Part shown: positions 23,338 to 35,092 of the stretch, piece by piece
Numbering within the stretch: position 1 is the first letter of the stretch
How the letters are laid out: every line of letters begins with the position of its first letter
Assembly (NCBI RefSeq): GCF_900088125.1
Contig: NZ_FLQT01000003.1
Span: 1,611,071 to 1,675,070, forward strand
DNA length: 64,000 nucleotides
DNA from: Peptoniphilus pacaensis
Lineage (GTDB): Bacteria; Bacillota; Clostridia; Tissierellales; Peptoniphilaceae
Direction of reading: 5' to 3'
Made by a program: the position numbers and the translations under genes
Notes under the pieces: model-generated
The model's database searches: none
What the model was told of the DNA's origin: nothing
Seen by the model: the letters and a program-made list of their open reading frames with translations, nothing else

Positions 23338-24795
23338 ATGAAATTTTTAGGAGACGGCTTAACTTTCGATGATATTTTACTCATGCCCGGGTATTCGGAA
23401 GTGTTGCCGAACGAAGTGGAGTTAAAGACGAAAATAACCGATGCCATTGAATTAAACATTCCCTTAATGAGTGCCGGCATGGACACGGTCACGGAGTCGC
23501 AAATGGCCATCGCTATGGCCCGCGAAGGGGGCATCGGCATTATTCACAAGAGCATGCCTTTAGAAGCACAGGTGAAAGAAGTTGATCGCGTCAAGCGTTC
23601 GGAACACGGCGTCATTACCGATCCTTTTTCCTTATCGAAAGATCACGTCATTAAGGATGCCTTGGAGCTGATGAGCCATTACCGCATCAGCGGCGTGCCC
23701 GTTGTCGACGAAAATAATATTCTCGAAGGCATTATTACTAATCGCGACATCCGCTTCGAAGACGATTTAAGCAAAAAAATCGAAAGCGTCATGACCAGTG
23801 CCAATTTGGTCACGGGAAAACAAGGTATTTCCATGGACGATGCCTTGAAGGTCATGAAGCAATACAAAATTGAAAAGCTGCCCTTAATCGACGACGACCA
23901 TCACTTAATGGGCCTGATCACGATTAAAGACATTGAAAAGGCCATTCAATACCCGAACTCCGCCAGAGATGCAGGCGGCCGTCTCCTCGCCGGAGCCGCC
24001 ATCGGTGTCACCCACGACGTGTACGAACGGGTGGAAGCCCTTCGCGCGGCAGGAACCGACCTGTTCGTCATTGACACGGCCCACGGCCAATCGGAAGGGG
24101 TCTTGAAGGTTATTCATGAAATCAAAAAGGCTTTCCCGGACATTCAATTAGTAGCCGGGAATGTGGCCACCTACCGCGGTACCATGGATTTGATCGAGGC
24201 CGGCGCCGACTGCGTCAAGGTCGGTATCGGTCCTGGTTCCATTTGTACCACCCGCGTGGTCACCGGTATCGGCGTGCCTCAAGTCACCGCCATATTAAAC
24301 TGCGCGAAGGCCGGTCAGGAAAAAGGCATCCCCATTATCGGCGACGGCGGGATCAAATATTCCGGTGACGTCACCAAGGCCATTGCAGCCGGTGCCGACG
24401 TGGTCATGATGGGCTCCATGTTTGCAGGGACCGACGAAAGTCCCGGGGAAGAAATTTACGTCGAAGGCCGTCGCTTTAAAACCTACCGCGGCATGGGCTC
24501 CTTAGGCGCCATGAGCAGCGGATCCAGCGACCGCTACTTCCAATCGGAAACGAAGAAATACGTTCCCGAAGGCGTGGAAGGTCGCGTGCCCTTTAAGGGA
24601 AAAGTCGGCGACGTCATTTACCAACTTATCGGCGGTTTAAAATCCGGCATGGGTTACGTTGGGGCGAAAAATATTCACGAACTCAAGACCAATACGGAGT
24701 ACATGAAGATCACCCCCGCCACTTTGCAGGAAAACCATCCTCACAACATTACCATTACGAGAGAAAGTCCGAACTACATCGGAACAAAGAAATAG
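23338..24795 (+). CDS. guaB: Inosine-5'-monophosphate dehydrogenase
   Basis: A 485-residue IMPDH, catalysing the NAD-dependent IMP to XMP step of GMP synthesis. Catalytic loop GPGSICTTR contains the active-site Cys; the tandem CBS domains lie between residues about 95 and 205; the flap [10 protein letters not shown] and C-terminal KSGMGYVGA are present. The ATG at 23338 follows GAGGAGG, which rules out longer in-frame starts. Its terminator is interrupted by the IS element that follows. Confidence 0.97.
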
Positions 24796-24827
24796 ACAGA
24801 AAAATGGCCGCTCCCGTGGAATGCACT

Positions 24828-24873
24828 GACCCCCAAAAGTTGGACCAAGAAATCCAACCTTTGGGGGTCTTTT
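24828..24873 (+). terminator. IS-borne left-end terminator hairpin (copy 1)
   Basis: GACCCCCAAA-A-GTTGGA pairs with TCCAAC-C-TTTGGGGGTC (one mismatch, 8-nt loop) and is followed by TTTT. It overlaps the left inverted repeat and ends two bases before the orfA ATG. The descending arm holds GGGGGT, the only ribosome binding site candidate, so transcripts reading in from guaB would be terminated or have the site masked. Confidence 0.8.
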
Positions 24874-24874
24874 A

Positions 24875-25459
24875 ATGGCAAAATACAGTTATGAATTAAA
24901 AAGGAAAATCGTCGAAGAATACCTGTTCGGAGAGTCAAGCTATCCCATCTTAGAAGATAAATATCAAATTGATGAATCACTGATCAGACGTTGGGTCAAT
25001 AATTACAAACAATTTGGCGATGAAGGGTTAATGCGCTCTAGAAATAAACGTGAGTACAGTGTAGAGTTTAAGTTAGAAGCCATTACACGTTACGAAACGA
25101 GCGAATGCAGTTACCAACAATTGGCCCTTGAACTTGGTTTGACGAATCCGTCCATGATCGCCAAATGGCACAGTCAGTATCGAAAGGAGGGCATGGAGGG
25201 GCTGCGAACACATAAGCGAGGGAGACCTGTGACGAAGAAAGACGCCTGCAATCAACCACCGAAGTCTGCAACTAAGAAGGAGCCTCTTGATGCATCCTCG
25301 CGTGAGGCATTGGAAAACCGCATCAAAGAATCAGAGGCGGAGAACCGGAAACTCACCATTCAAAAGCTATACCTGGAGGAGCTAAGGAGTTTGGTGAGGG
25401 AAGAAAAAATGAGAAAAAGGCGAGGATCGTCGCCAAACTCCGAGAACAATTCCAACTAA
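24875..25459 (+). CDS. IS3-family transposase OrfA (copy 1)
   Basis: A 194-residue DNA-binding subunit. Two helix-turn-helix units are visible (YPILEDKYQIDESLIRRWV, residues 24-42, and YQQLALELGLTNPSMIAKWH, about 77-96), followed by a basic RGRP segment and a C-terminal leucine-rich coiled coil for oligomerisation. The gene ends out of frame with orfB; A-rich slip sites near the end (A6 at 25404-25409, A5G at 25414-25419) suit programmed -1 frameshifting to make OrfAB. The protein is identical to that at 33568. Confidence 0.9.
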   Translation: MAKYSYELKRKIVEEYLFGESSYPILEDKYQIDESLIRRWVNNYKQFGDEGLMRSRNKREYSVEFKLEAITRYETSECSYQQLALELGLTNPSMIAKWHSQYRKEGMEGLRTHKRGRPVTKKDACNQPPKSATKKEPLDASSREALENRIKESEAENRKLTIQKLYLEELRSLVREEKMRKRRGSSPNSENNSN

Positions 25460-25500
25460 CAGAGATACTCGCTGCCATCAACTTTCCCAAATCCACCTTT

Positions 25501-26301
25501 ATGTATTGGCAGAAAAAGTGGAGCGAAGAAGACAAAGACCAAGCGTTAAAAGACGAGATCCTCGCCATTCGGCGCGAACACAAAGACTACGGCTACCGCC
25601 GGATCCATCTGGAGCTGAAGAACCGGGGTTGGGCGGTAAACAAAAAGAAAGTTCAACGACTGGTTCAAGACATGGGCCTTCAAGTCCGTGCCTATGGCAG
25701 GAAATACAAGAAGTACAACTCTTACAAAGGCGTCGTCGGTAAGATCAAGAAGAATCGAATCAATCGACGCTTCAACACCTGTATCCCCTACCAAAAAATT
25801 ACCACCGACACTACAGAATTCAAATACTACGTCGAAGATAAAGCGGGGAAACTTCAAACAAAGAAACTCTACCTCGATCCATACATGGACATGTACAATC
25901 TGGAAATCATTAGCTACGTCCTATCCGATCAGCCCAACGGCGTCACCATGCTACGAGGCTTAGAAAAAGCCATCGAACGAACCAACACCTGTCCCTATCG
26001 CCGCACCTTCCACTCCGATCGCGGTTGGGGCTACCAAATGACCGCCTATCAAGCCATGTTAGAAGAACACCACATCTTTCAAAGCATGTCGAGAAAAGGT
26101 AACTGCTACGACAACGCACCCATGGAAAACTTCTTCAGTGTACTGAAAAGAGAAATCTACGACGGTTACGTCTACCGAAGCCGGCAGAAACTTGTGCGGG
26201 CGATCGAAGACTTTATCCACTACTATAACAACGACCGAATCAAAGAAAAATTAGGAGGGCTAAGTCCAAAGCAATACCGTGAACGAATGAAAACCGCTTA
26301 G
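25501..26301 (+). CDS. IS3-family transposase OrfB, integrase catalytic domain (copy 1)
   Basis: 266 residues from the first ATG, with an rve-type catalytic core: Asp103 (TTDTTEF), Asp173 (HSDRGWGY) and Glu209 (NAPMENFFS), giving the classical D-D-35-E spacing. The upstream HTH_21 segment (DYGYRRIHLEL) is intact. The -1 frame is open back to about 25306, so the real product is probably an OrfAB fusion made by frameshifting within 25306-25459, with the ATG at 25501 giving a shorter form at most. No disabling mutation is seen. Confidence 0.9.
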   Translation: MYWQKKWSEEDKDQALKDEILAIRREHKDYGYRRIHLELKNRGWAVNKKKVQRLVQDMGLQVRAYGRKYKKYNSYKGVVGKIKKNRINRRFNTCIPYQKITTDTTEFKYYVEDKAGKLQTKKLYLDPYMDMYNLEIISYVLSDQPNGVTMLRGLEKAIERTNTCPYRRTFHSDRGWGYQMTAYQAMLEEHHIFQSMSRKGNCYDNAPMENFFSVLKREIYDGYVYRSRQKLVRAIEDFIHYYNNDRIKEKLGGLSPKQYRERMKTA

Positions 26302-26322
26302 AAAATAAGTTATGTAAAACAA

Positions 26323-26351
26323 AATCGAGCAAGCGAAATGCTTACTCGATT
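26323..26351 (-). terminator. IS-borne right-end hairpin, terminator on the minus strand (copy 1)
   Basis: AATCGAG-C-AAGC / GCTT-A-CTCGATT forms a stem with a GAAAT loop. On the plus strand no T run follows, but on the minus strand it is followed by TTGTTTT, as expected for a terminator stopping transcripts that enter the IS from the convergent ABC permease gene. Confidence 0.65.
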
Positions 26352-26400
26352 AAGTCCAACTTTATGGGGTCACTCTAGAACACAGGGGCGGCTTTTTTAT

Positions 26401-27123
26401 TTATTCATATTTTAAAGATCGTCGGGCGAAAACATAGGCGATTAGACTTTCTGCCAATGCAAATCCGAGGACGATGAGGGAATCCCGTATTGTAAATCGG
26501 GCGAAGTGATTCATTTCATAGGCCAAGGTGTTCAAAGCAAAAGCATTTTCGATCATCGGAATGAATTGCTGGGCACAGGCTAAAAATCCGAACATGGATA
26601 AGGCCACGGAGAGAAGGGTTACGCCGCCTAAGGATTTCATACGAATGCTTAAAGCGGAAAAAACAAAGACGGCGGGTATGGCCAGAAGAATGCTCGCGAA
26701 GAAGTAGTAAAAATAAAGGGAAAAGTCGAGGTTACCGAAGCCGCAGACGAAGCGGCCGGCCAGATAAAAGCAAGAAAAAAAGAAAATTTGGGCGATGACG
26801 ATAAGGAAACAGGCCAAAAGGCTTTTCGCAAAAATAAACCGGCTATATTTGGCGGTACTAAGCCGAATAAAATTTAATCCCGCTTTATGCTCGACCTGCC
26901 ACAATAGTGCGACGATGATGGCGATAAGGGGCACATAGAAAAAGGAAAAGTAGAAGAGAGAAATTTGGGTAAACAAACTCTCCCATTCATGGGTGAGGGC
27001 GGCGCGATTGCCCATGTAGTTGAAGGTGCCGAAGCTTGTCGCCAACAATGGCACGACGAGGATGGCCAAGAGAAGGGGGAGCCATTTTATTTTCTTGACC
27101 TCAATTGAAAAAACAGAAAACAT
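26401..27123 (-). CDS. ABC-2 type permease, lantibiotic-immunity-like (second of two)
   Basis: A 240-residue protein with six hydrophobic helices and no large extracytoplasmic loop, a layout typical of LanE/LanG (MutE/EpiE-like) and Bcr-type permeases. It follows the first permease by 8 bp and the shared ATPase gene before that. With them it would form an exporter that removes antimicrobial peptides from the membrane, which is inferred from subunit architecture and the adjacent two-component system. The gene converges on guaB; the intervening terminator holds the IS. Confidence 0.78.
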   Translation of the reverse strand: MFSVFSIEVKKIKWLPLLLAILVVPLLATSFGTFNYMGNRAALTHEWESLFTQISLFYFSFFYVPLIAIIVALLWQVEHKAGLNFIRLSTAKYSRFIFAKSLLACFLIVIAQIFFFSCFYLAGRFVCGFGNLDFSLYFYYFFASILLAIPAVFVFSALSIRMKSLGGVTLLSVALSMFGFLACAQQFIPMIENAFALNTLAYEMNHFARFTIRDSLIVLGFALAESLIAYVFARRSLKYE

Positions 27124-33495: not shown

Positions 33496-33520
33496 AAAAT
33501 CGGATCCTGCGGGGTGCACT

Positions 33521-33566
33521 GACCCCCAAAAGTTGGACCAAGAAATCCAACCTTTGGGGGTCTTTT
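33521..33566 (+). terminator. IS-borne left-end terminator hairpin (copy 2)
   Basis: The same hairpin as in copy 1, followed by TTTT just before the orfA start. It would stop transcripts entering from yerC and so replace the interrupted host terminator. Confidence 0.8.
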
Positions 33567-33567
33567 A

Positions 33568-34152
33568 ATGGCAAAATACAGTTATGAATTAAAAAGGAAA
33601 ATCGTCGAAGAATACCTGTTCGGAGAGTCAAGCTATCCCATCTTAGAAGATAAATATCAAATTGATGAATCACTGATCAGACGTTGGGTCAATAATTACA
33701 AACAATTTGGCGATGAAGGGTTAATGCGCTCTAGAAATAAACGTGAGTACAGTGTAGAGTTTAAGTTAGAAGCCATTACACGTTACGAAACGAGCGAATG
33801 CAGTTACCAACAATTGGCCCTTGAACTTGGTTTGACGAATCCGTCCATGATCGCCAAATGGCACAGTCAGTATCGAAAGGAGGGCATGGAGGGGCTGCGA
33901 ACACATAAGCGAGGGAGACCTGTGACGAAGAAAGACGCCTGCAATCAACCACCGAAGTCTGCAACTAAGAAGGAGCCTCTTGATGCATCCTCGCGTGAGG
34001 CATTGGAAAACCGCATCAAAGAATCAGAGGCGGAGAACCGGAAACTCACCATTCAAAAGCTATACCTGGAGGAGCTAAGGAGTTTGGTGAGGGAAGAAAA
34101 AATGAGAAAAAGGCGAGGATCGTCGCCAAACTCCGAGAACAATTCCAACTAA
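33568..34152 (+). CDS. IS3-family transposase OrfA (copy 2)
   Basis: A 194-residue protein identical to OrfA of copy 1, with two helix-turn-helix units and a C-terminal coiled coil. The only ribosome binding site candidate, GGGGGT, lies in the descending arm of the left-end hairpin. Confidence 0.9.
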   Translation: MAKYSYELKRKIVEEYLFGESSYPILEDKYQIDESLIRRWVNNYKQFGDEGLMRSRNKREYSVEFKLEAITRYETSECSYQQLALELGLTNPSMIAKWHSQYRKEGMEGLRTHKRGRPVTKKDACNQPPKSATKKEPLDASSREALENRIKESEAENRKLTIQKLYLEELRSLVREEKMRKRRGSSPNSENNSN

Positions 34153-34193
34153 CAGAGATACTCGCTGCCATCAACTTTCCCAAATCCACCTTT

Positions 34194-34994
34194 ATGTATT
34201 GGCAGAAAAAGTGGAGCGAAGAAGACAAAGACCAAGCGTTAAAAGACGAGATCCTCGCCATTCGGCGCGAACACAAAGACTACGGCTACCGCCGGATCCA
34301 TCTGGAGCTGAAGAACCGGGGTTGGGCGGTAAACAAAAAGAAAGTTCAACGACTGGTTCAAGACATGGGCCTTCAAGTCCGTGCCTATGGCAGGAAATAC
34401 AAGAAGTACAACTCTTACAAAGGCGTCGTCGGTAAGATCAAGAAGAATCGAATCAATCGACGCTTCAACACCTGTATCCCCTACCAAAAAATTACCACCG
34501 ACACTACAGAATTCAAATACTACGTCGAAGATAAAGCGGGGAAACTTCAAACAAAGAAACTCTACCTCGATCCATACATGGACATGTACAATCTGGAAAT
34601 CATTAGCTACGTCCTATCCGATCAGCCCAACGGCGTCACCATGCTACGAGGCTTAGAAAAAGCCATCGAACGAACCAACACCTGTCCCTATCGCCGCACC
34701 TTCCACTCCGATCGCGGTTGGGGCTACCAAATGACCGCCTATCAAGCCATGTTAGAAGAACACCACATCTTTCAAAGCATGTCGAGAAAAGGTAACTGCT
34801 ACGACAACGCACCCATGGAAAACTTCTTCAGTGTACTGAAAAGAGAAATCTACGACGGTTACGTCTACCGAAGCCGGCAGAAACTTGTGCGGGCGATCGA
34901 AGACTTTATCCACTACTATAACAACGACCGAATCAAAGAAAAATTAGGAGGGCTAAGTCCAAAGCAATACCGTGAACGAATGAAAACCGCTTAG
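34194..34994 (+). CDS. IS3-family transposase OrfB (copy 2)
   Basis: A 266-residue protein identical to OrfB of copy 1, with Asp103, Asp173 and Glu209 intact. It probably functions as an OrfAB fusion made by -1 frameshifting at the A-rich sites near the end of orfA (34097-34112). Confidence 0.9.
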   Translation: MYWQKKWSEEDKDQALKDEILAIRREHKDYGYRRIHLELKNRGWAVNKKKVQRLVQDMGLQVRAYGRKYKKYNSYKGVVGKIKKNRINRRFNTCIPYQKITTDTTEFKYYVEDKAGKLQTKKLYLDPYMDMYNLEIISYVLSDQPNGVTMLRGLEKAIERTNTCPYRRTFHSDRGWGYQMTAYQAMLEEHHIFQSMSRKGNCYDNAPMENFFSVLKREIYDGYVYRSRQKLVRAIEDFIHYYNNDRIKEKLGGLSPKQYRERMKTA

Positions 34995-35015
34995 AAAATA
35001 AGTTATGTAAAACAA

Positions 35016-35044
35016 AATCGAGCAAGCGAAATGCTTACTCGATT
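35016..35044 (-). terminator. IS-borne right-end hairpin, terminator on the minus strand (copy 2)
   Basis: The same stem-loop as in copy 1; on the minus strand it is followed by TTGTTTT. It would stop rqcH transcripts entering the IS from the right. Confidence 0.65.
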
Positions 35045-35092
35045 AAGTCCAACTTTATGGGGTCACTCTAGGGTCCGATTTTTGCGTATAAA

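Follow-up and report, generated by a model that had tools for sequence, protein, structure and literature searches.

An IS3-family element that inserts near the apex of terminator-like hairpins and carries inward-facing terminator-like hairpins at its own ends

Introduction

Insertion sequences of the IS3 family integrate via a transposase with a DDE core, and some of them, such as IS1397, enter palindromes. The accessible part of PMC1525189 describes specific insertion of IS1397 and ISKpn1 in REP sequences, for which their transposases appear to be responsible; an earlier note on the DNA studied here had named IS1397 as an IS150-group member that inserts into loops of REP/PU palindromes, and of this its IS3-family membership and its REP targeting agree with this source, as far as its available text goes. 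In staphylococci, IS1272/TnSha1 always inserts into hairpins, several of which are terminators confirmed by RNA-seq, has no primary sequence preference and hits the same places repeatedly and in both orientations, according to excerpts of PMC4923244, and its insertion is termed stem-loop replacement in an excerpt of PMC5678879. The IS1447 group of the IS3 family, which is common in Firmicutes, makes 3-4 bp duplications, uses +1 transcriptional slippage and has an insertion in the tdk gene (PMC6211511, available part). Palindrome-targeting IS3 elements (IS1397) and a terminator-targeting element of the IS1182 family (IS1272) are already published; searches of open-licence PMC full text gave no report of an IS3-family element that targets intrinsic terminators.

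The window analysed here, a stretch of 64,000 nucleotides from Peptoniphilus pacaensis, contains two copies of an IS3-family element. It resembles IS1397 and ISKpn1 in its IS3-family transposase and palindromic target, as far as these are described in the accessible part of PMC1525189, but those elements target one repeated REP family per host, whereas the sites of this element differ in sequence and have a terminator-like hairpin in common. It is also similar to IS1272 in its insertion into hairpins without a sequence consensus; however, IS1272 belongs to the IS1182 family, inserts bluntly and leaves no duplication but loses part of the stem. At the sites of the present element, both arms are retained and 3 bp, sometimes 4 bp, are duplicated at the apex. 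The IS1447 group is set apart from it by description only, no terminator target being described in the available portion of PMC6211511. What is new here is the conserved inward-facing hairpins at the element's ends, the left one of which is built on the left inverted repeat.

Results

Anatomy and family of the element—The features of both copies and of their targets are given in Table 1. The element has the IS3 layout, with overlapping orfA and orfB, a helix-turn-helix in orfA and a DDE integrase core in OrfB (PF00665, 7.1e-18; PF13333, 1.6e-18), and OrfB matches the NCBIfam IS3 transposase model NF033516 with 243.7 bits (cut-off 160). Its ends are also those of the family, being short imperfect inverted repeats, TGCACTGACCCC and TAGAGTGACCCC, flanked by a 3-bp duplication. 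Judging from the reading frames, orfA and orfB are probably joined by a -1 frameshift around the A6 run. In pairwise comparison, OrfB is about 41% identical to proteins annotated as IS150. The right end of the element reads TA (window 26376-26377), as it does in the host copies and in many relatives; IS3-family ends usually read CA, according to the accessible part of PMC6211511.

Table 1. Coordinates of the two element copies, their parts and their target sites in the window
Feature	Position	Strand	Description
IS copy 1	24822-26377	+	1,556 bp, IS3 family; ends TGCACTGACCCC... / ...GGGGTCACTCTA
5' arm of interrupted guaB terminator hairpin	24807-24818	+	GCCGCTCCCGTG; from restored fold and homologous intact hairpins in G007, G001 and G004
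Target duplication, left copy	24819-24821	+	GAA, the hairpin loop; from sequence
Left-end hairpin	24828-24869	+	left inverted repeat paired with internal complement; TTTT, then orfA start codon
orfA	24875-25459	+	194 aa, helix-turn-helix (PF13518, PF01527)
A6 run in orfA/orfB overlap	25404-25409	+	probable -1 frameshift site, judged from frames
orfB, from first ATG	25501-26301	+	266 aa, integrase core (PF00665, PF13333); frame open from 25306
Right-end inward-facing terminator-like hairpin	26323-26351	-	AATCGAGTAAGC-ATTTC-GCTTGCTCGATT, tail TTGTTTTACA; consensus scan
Target duplication, right copy	26378-26380	+	GAA; from sequence
3' arm of guaB terminator hairpin	26381-26392	+	CACAGGGGCGGC, then TTTTTT
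IS copy 2	33515-35070	+	identical to copy 1 over all 1,556 bases
Copy 2 target, left part	33500-33514	+	arm TCGGATCC, loop TGCG, duplication GGG (33512-33514)
Copy 2 target, right part	35071-35083	+	duplication GGG (35071-35073), rest of 3' arm TCCGA, then TTTTT

Insertion sites in the window and in the host genome—The earlier note had placed copy 1 exactly in the loop of the hairpin that terminates guaB, with these 3 nt as the target duplication, and the coordinates and the restored fold agree with this. Removal of the element and one GAA leaves a 12-position stem with one C-A mismatch, one G-U pair and the loop GAA, followed by six T, as that note had read from the sequence. The rejoined site folds at -22.9 kcal/mol as RNA (64 nt) and at -12.1 kcal/mol as single-stranded DNA (52 nt), for which z is -3.98 and none of 200 shuffles does as well. 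The guaB gene ends at 24795 (+) and an ORF on the opposite strand occupies 26401-27123 (-), so the hairpin, which lies between them, may terminate both. Copy 2 is also within a hairpin; here the duplicated GGG opens the 3' arm and adjoins a 4-nt loop. The wording "exactly in the loop" is thus right for copy 1, and wrong for copy 2 and in general: over all sites described below, "near the apex" is accurate, and the duplication equals the loop in some copies only.

The host genome (G000, 1.85 Mb) has 23 matches to the element, ten of which are near-complete, and nine of these ten have the 3-bp duplication. The tenth, L007, lacks it and, at 2,285 bp from end to end, includes an additional insertion. 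A hairpin is restored at all nine duplication-flanked sites, and at -14 kcal/mol eight of the nine satisfy the strict rule for terminators, which is defined in the following section. The other one, L010, has a hairpin followed by TTTTTTT; the rule overlooked it since its best fold was taken from the opposite strand, where T=3. The nine targets are nine different sequences, so that a repeated target of the REP kind was not found among them.

Target sites of relatives—Matches to the element were found in 7 of the 8 genomes of the genus searched, in 35/130 of the family, 42/249 of the order, 32/391 of the class and 17/398 of the phylum; the searches of the order, class and phylum used various E limits and partly overlapping genomes, and further loci were collected by name. 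Of the 165 loci read, 112 elements with both ends and a duplication were kept, whose OrfB proteins are 40-100% identical. The other 53 were dropped because they had no end pair, no duplication, a CC motif not present in both ends or a flank that was too short, or because they belonged to classes E or F; from set A, which is the closest, these include L007, L036 and L041 (no 3-bp duplication) and L031 (no end pair). The strict rule calls a restored site terminator-like if its hairpin has at least 8 pairs, at least four T in six, a centre no more than 7 nt from the duplication and an energy at least as low as a limit of -10 or -14 kcal/mol. A loose rule, with 6 pairs and -6 kcal/mol, was set aside as uninformative, since 1787 of 4000 random positions pass its hairpin part, and the strict rules alone carry the conclusions.

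By the strict rule, the restored site is a terminator-like hairpin in 87 of the 112 elements at -10 kcal/mol and in 72 at -14 kcal/mol. At these two limits, respectively, 20 and 19 of 23 sites pass in set A, 23 and 16 of 32 in set B, 4 and 2 of 6 in set C, and 11 and 9 of 12 in the phylum set; in the class set, 16 and 16 of 22 pass where OrfB is at least 50% identical, and 13 and 10 of 17 where it is less than 50% identical. From copies 1 and 2, the earlier note had suggested an IS with terminator-hairpin target specificity and had proposed to fold the restored sites of all copies in this genome and its relatives, and both the host sites and this wider set support its suggestion: most copies do not lie in non-palindromic DNA.

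At 63 of the 87 strict sites, hairpin and duplication have centres no more than 2 nt apart. The duplication has 3 bp, sometimes 4 bp, and both hairpin arms are kept. No stem consensus is evident in position-wise base counts of 61 sites; their averaged target is A-rich around -13 to -19 and T-rich around +13 to +19. About a fifth of the sites (25/112) miss the -10 rule, and 17/112 miss even the loose hairpin rule; some of the failing sites have a hairpin offset by 7.5-9.5 nt and some are hairpin-free (L111, L250). Elements L100 and L095 of classes E and F, which have a duplication, fail the rule as well, while L121, which has none, lies in a palindrome without a T-run. L100 and L121 (genome G012, class E) are found in G-rich stretches, and the long palindrome around L121 is perhaps a REP-like target. 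By eye, L104 (G010) and L105 (G034), which both fail the strict rule, have apparently entered the hairpin that a related IS carries at its left end, an element-borne terminator.

Controls for chance and for other elements—Chance was rejected by controls that concern position, shift, re-pairing of flanks, ISL3 elements and, for the hairpins of the element's left ends, mixed arms. At -14 kcal/mol, a terminator-like hairpin is called at 94 of 6000 window positions, neighbouring positions not being independent, and at 85 of 2550 intergenic positions and 79 of 1230 positions no more than 100 bp 3' of an ORF, where neighbours are again not independent; 28 of the 2550 intergenic positions are within 2 nt of the axis of such a hairpin. 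When the 61 sites are displaced, hairpins centred within 3 nt fall from 42 at shift 0 to 1 at -8 and 6 at +8; a shift of at least 8 bases removes nearly all hits. Joining left flanks to the right flanks of other sites preserves the A-rich/T-rich layout, and these re-paired flanks reach -14 kcal/mol in 7.5% (set A), 2.7% (set B) and 3.3% (set C) of cases, compared to 19/23 and 16/32 of the native flanks in sets A and B.

ISL3 elements (PF01610) from G128, G052 and G087 were read at 20 loci from a larger copy number, and 6 of these were dropped because they had no usable duplication; the strict rule is passed by 3 of the remaining 14 at -10 kcal/mol and by 2 at -14 kcal/mol. The 112 elements, which span more genomes than the three of ISL3, differ from them with Fisher p values of 5.5e-5 and 7.7e-4, respectively. 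Four ISL3 copies of G128 (L303, L314, L320 and L323) lie, by eye, in an A/T tract beside terminator-like hairpins, off the apex. IS256 elements (PF00872) are absent from all 8 genus genomes and have matches in 3 of 15 chosen genomes; none of the three copies in G034 passes the terminator rule, and the G380 copies, whose ends are unsettled, the single match of G128 and two partial matches were left out. The PF01609 element of G121, which is IS1182-like (523-aa frame), was rejected as a negative control, for it targets complementary flanks itself: its 8 copies (L238-L245) have no duplication and their flanks are often complementary over 1-8 bp next to the element, a pattern like the replacement of inverted repeats reported for IS1272.

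Empty sites and repeated hits—Six of the 9 host sites have natural empty counterparts in orthologous DNA, and each of the 14 empty stretches that were folded forms a hairpin at the corresponding position; in L184 and L185 its sequence is unrelated. The earlier note would have taken empty-site orthologues without the restored hairpin as a refutation of its reading, and this outcome did not occur. In 6 of the 7 other genomes of the genus, a hairpin follows guaB and the stretch that was read contains no IS. The intact hairpins of G007, G001 and G004 are homologous to that of the host, with loops slightly unlike the restored loop, and those of G002, G003 and G006 are of unrelated sequence. In G005, an IS with 84% identity over its left 282 bases begins at the same base of the guaB site, as seen at the left junction only, for the contig ends in the IS. 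The guaB gene of G007 is the closest to that of the host (96%) and its site is empty; because of this, and because the host copy is identical to the other copies of its genome, the simplest reading of these sequences is that the guaB copies of the host and of G005 are two separate insertions, gene conversion being the alternative. The terminator of L006 has in G007 an IS in the opposite orientation, a few bases away, and that of L004 has in G001 the left end of an IS, also in the opposite orientation. Second hits in other species are thus seen at three terminators, and at two of these the orientation is reversed.

Terminator-like hairpins carried by the element—In the window, the left-end hairpin has -16 kcal/mol as DNA (z -3.88); a consensus terminator scan lists the right-end hairpin and does not list the left one, which has one internal mismatch and only four T. 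In 106 of the 112 elements, a hairpin uses the left inverted repeat as its 5' arm, and 104 of these hairpins have a T-run. An inward-facing terminator-like hairpin is called by the terminator rule at 101 left ends and 65 right ends, and in 11 of 448 interior pieces of the elements. In 35 left ends the native median is -24.2 kcal/mol, while left arms joined to the 3' arms of other elements have a mean of -14.4. A hairpin is called in 32 of these 35 distinct left ends, and the 3' arm of every one contains a purine-rich stretch that resembles a Shine-Dalgarno sequence. In a MAFFT alignment of 26 left ends, RNAalifold gives 4 pairs at -0.56 kcal/mol, two of which are changed on both sides; this result is weak because loop lengths vary. 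The left-end terminator is absent from the elements found outside terminators, namely classes E and F and IS150 of E. coli. L227 is an exception to this link, since the scripts call no left hairpin in it and it lies within a terminator-like hairpin.

Comparison with IS150 of E. coli—Annotation puts this element and IS150 in one group, and the two have in common the OrfB identity given above and 3-bp duplications. Of 11 distinct IS150 sites with flanking duplications, however, only 2 satisfy the terminator rule, and no terminator-like hairpin is present at the left end of IS150. Since IS150 passes at so few sites and insertions in coding genes are reported for it in the accessible part of PMC7881107, the terminator habit does not extend to the whole IS150 group. 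IS150-type copies lie beside dyad-rich hok/mok regions at 13 of 17 E. coli loci (L278-L294, chosen among 40 listed) and in the two plasmids that were read (L274, L277), and L279 and L283 occupy one site in opposite orientations.

Discussion

Proposed mechanism of target choice—We consider it probable, with good confidence, that this is an IS3 element of the IS150 kind which is guided in its integration to the axis of symmetry in DNA that can form hairpins; in these genomes, such DNA is mostly that of intrinsic terminators. The transposase would insert the element at the apex or close to it, in either orientation, by linking its ends to the two DNA strands with an offset of 3 bp, and the loop or the bases beside it would become the duplication; a 3-bp stagger across the axis of a palindrome would place the duplication at the apex, as is seen. 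The specificity would reside in dyad symmetry, that is, in a GC-rich inverted repeat between A-rich and T-rich flanks, and in no base sequence, so that structure would be recognized rather than another correlate. This symmetry could be read on duplex DNA by a transposase assembly that is itself symmetric, through extrusion of a cruciform, or by some component at a paused polymerase.

The last of these leads to a reading in which target choice is coupled to transcription: what attracts the transposase or transpososome at terminators would be paused RNA polymerase, or the RNA hairpin as it emerges, and not the DNA palindrome. Most hits are indeed terminator-like, with at least four T on one or both sides in 87 of the 112, and strong non-terminator hairpins are scarce outside genes, which makes the two readings hard to tell apart; we nevertheless judge the transcription-coupled one unlikely. 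The insertions centre on the DNA symmetry axis, some strong target hairpins, such as that of L099, have little or no T-run, and the orientation of the element has no significant bias relative to the stronger T-run (87 sites: 33 with, 24 against, 30 ties; p 0.29), gene context being likewise mixed (23 with, 18 against, 58 both, 13 neither). This lack of orientation bias fits a symmetric DNA target without proving one.

It is quite improbable that composition and spacing suffice, with A-rich and T-rich tracts about 28-34 bp apart, GC-rich DNA between them and no need for pairing of the arms. The averaged target has this layout, but so do the re-paired flanks, and these mostly fail at -14 kcal/mol, which indicates that each arm is matched specifically to its partner at the same site. 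Still less credible, to the point of being very improbable, is loose integration followed by survival of those copies that are harmless, i.e., in terminators. Insertion there should be nearly neutral, because terminators are intergenic and the element brings replacements, but selection would spare other intergenic positions too and would not set the duplication at the apex; the share of strict sites within 2 nt of the axis far exceeds that of intergenic positions, ISL3 elements of the same genomes do not have this pattern and the same terminators are hit again in other species.

Consequences for the host and the element—On the preferred reading, integration at the symmetry axis, the element breaks a terminator and probably supplies substitutes. 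A transcript that enters from a neighbouring gene would probably end at the inward-facing hairpins, and with the broken terminator replaced the neighbours would be little disturbed, which would benefit the host. Read-through would not express the transposase either: the purine-rich stretch before orfA is part of the left hairpin, in its 3' arm, and the orfA start would thereby be hidden in a transcript that reads in. Because IS150 and classes E and F, which are outside the habit, have no left-end terminator, the data suggest that terminator targeting and the left-end terminator evolved together. We lean slightly, little beyond even odds, to the broader view that an IS3/IS150-like clade widespread in Bacillota consists of "terminator-swapping" transposons, which would combine sequence-independent dyad recognition, integration at the apex, inward-facing terminators of their own and harmless spread.

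The 112 sites, which come from many genomes, make a data set on how a DDE transposase chooses its target by DNA symmetry or structure, and they tie target choice to element anatomy, as an element that breaks terminators carries terminators. For annotation, they give a safe-haven rule, by which these IS copies are intergenic and probably do not switch their neighbours on. Orthologous empty sites offer a way to date terminators, and the element is a possible route to integration tools aimed at gene ends.

Short and distant relatives—MITE-like short derivatives (L135-L141), which were not counted, have end pairs in 3 of 7 loci (164, 376 and 477 bp), none with a duplication. The OrfB of L246 (G710) is 92% identical in a genome related only at the phylum level, and this identity suggests a recent transfer. 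The flanks of L246 resemble halves of two different terminators.
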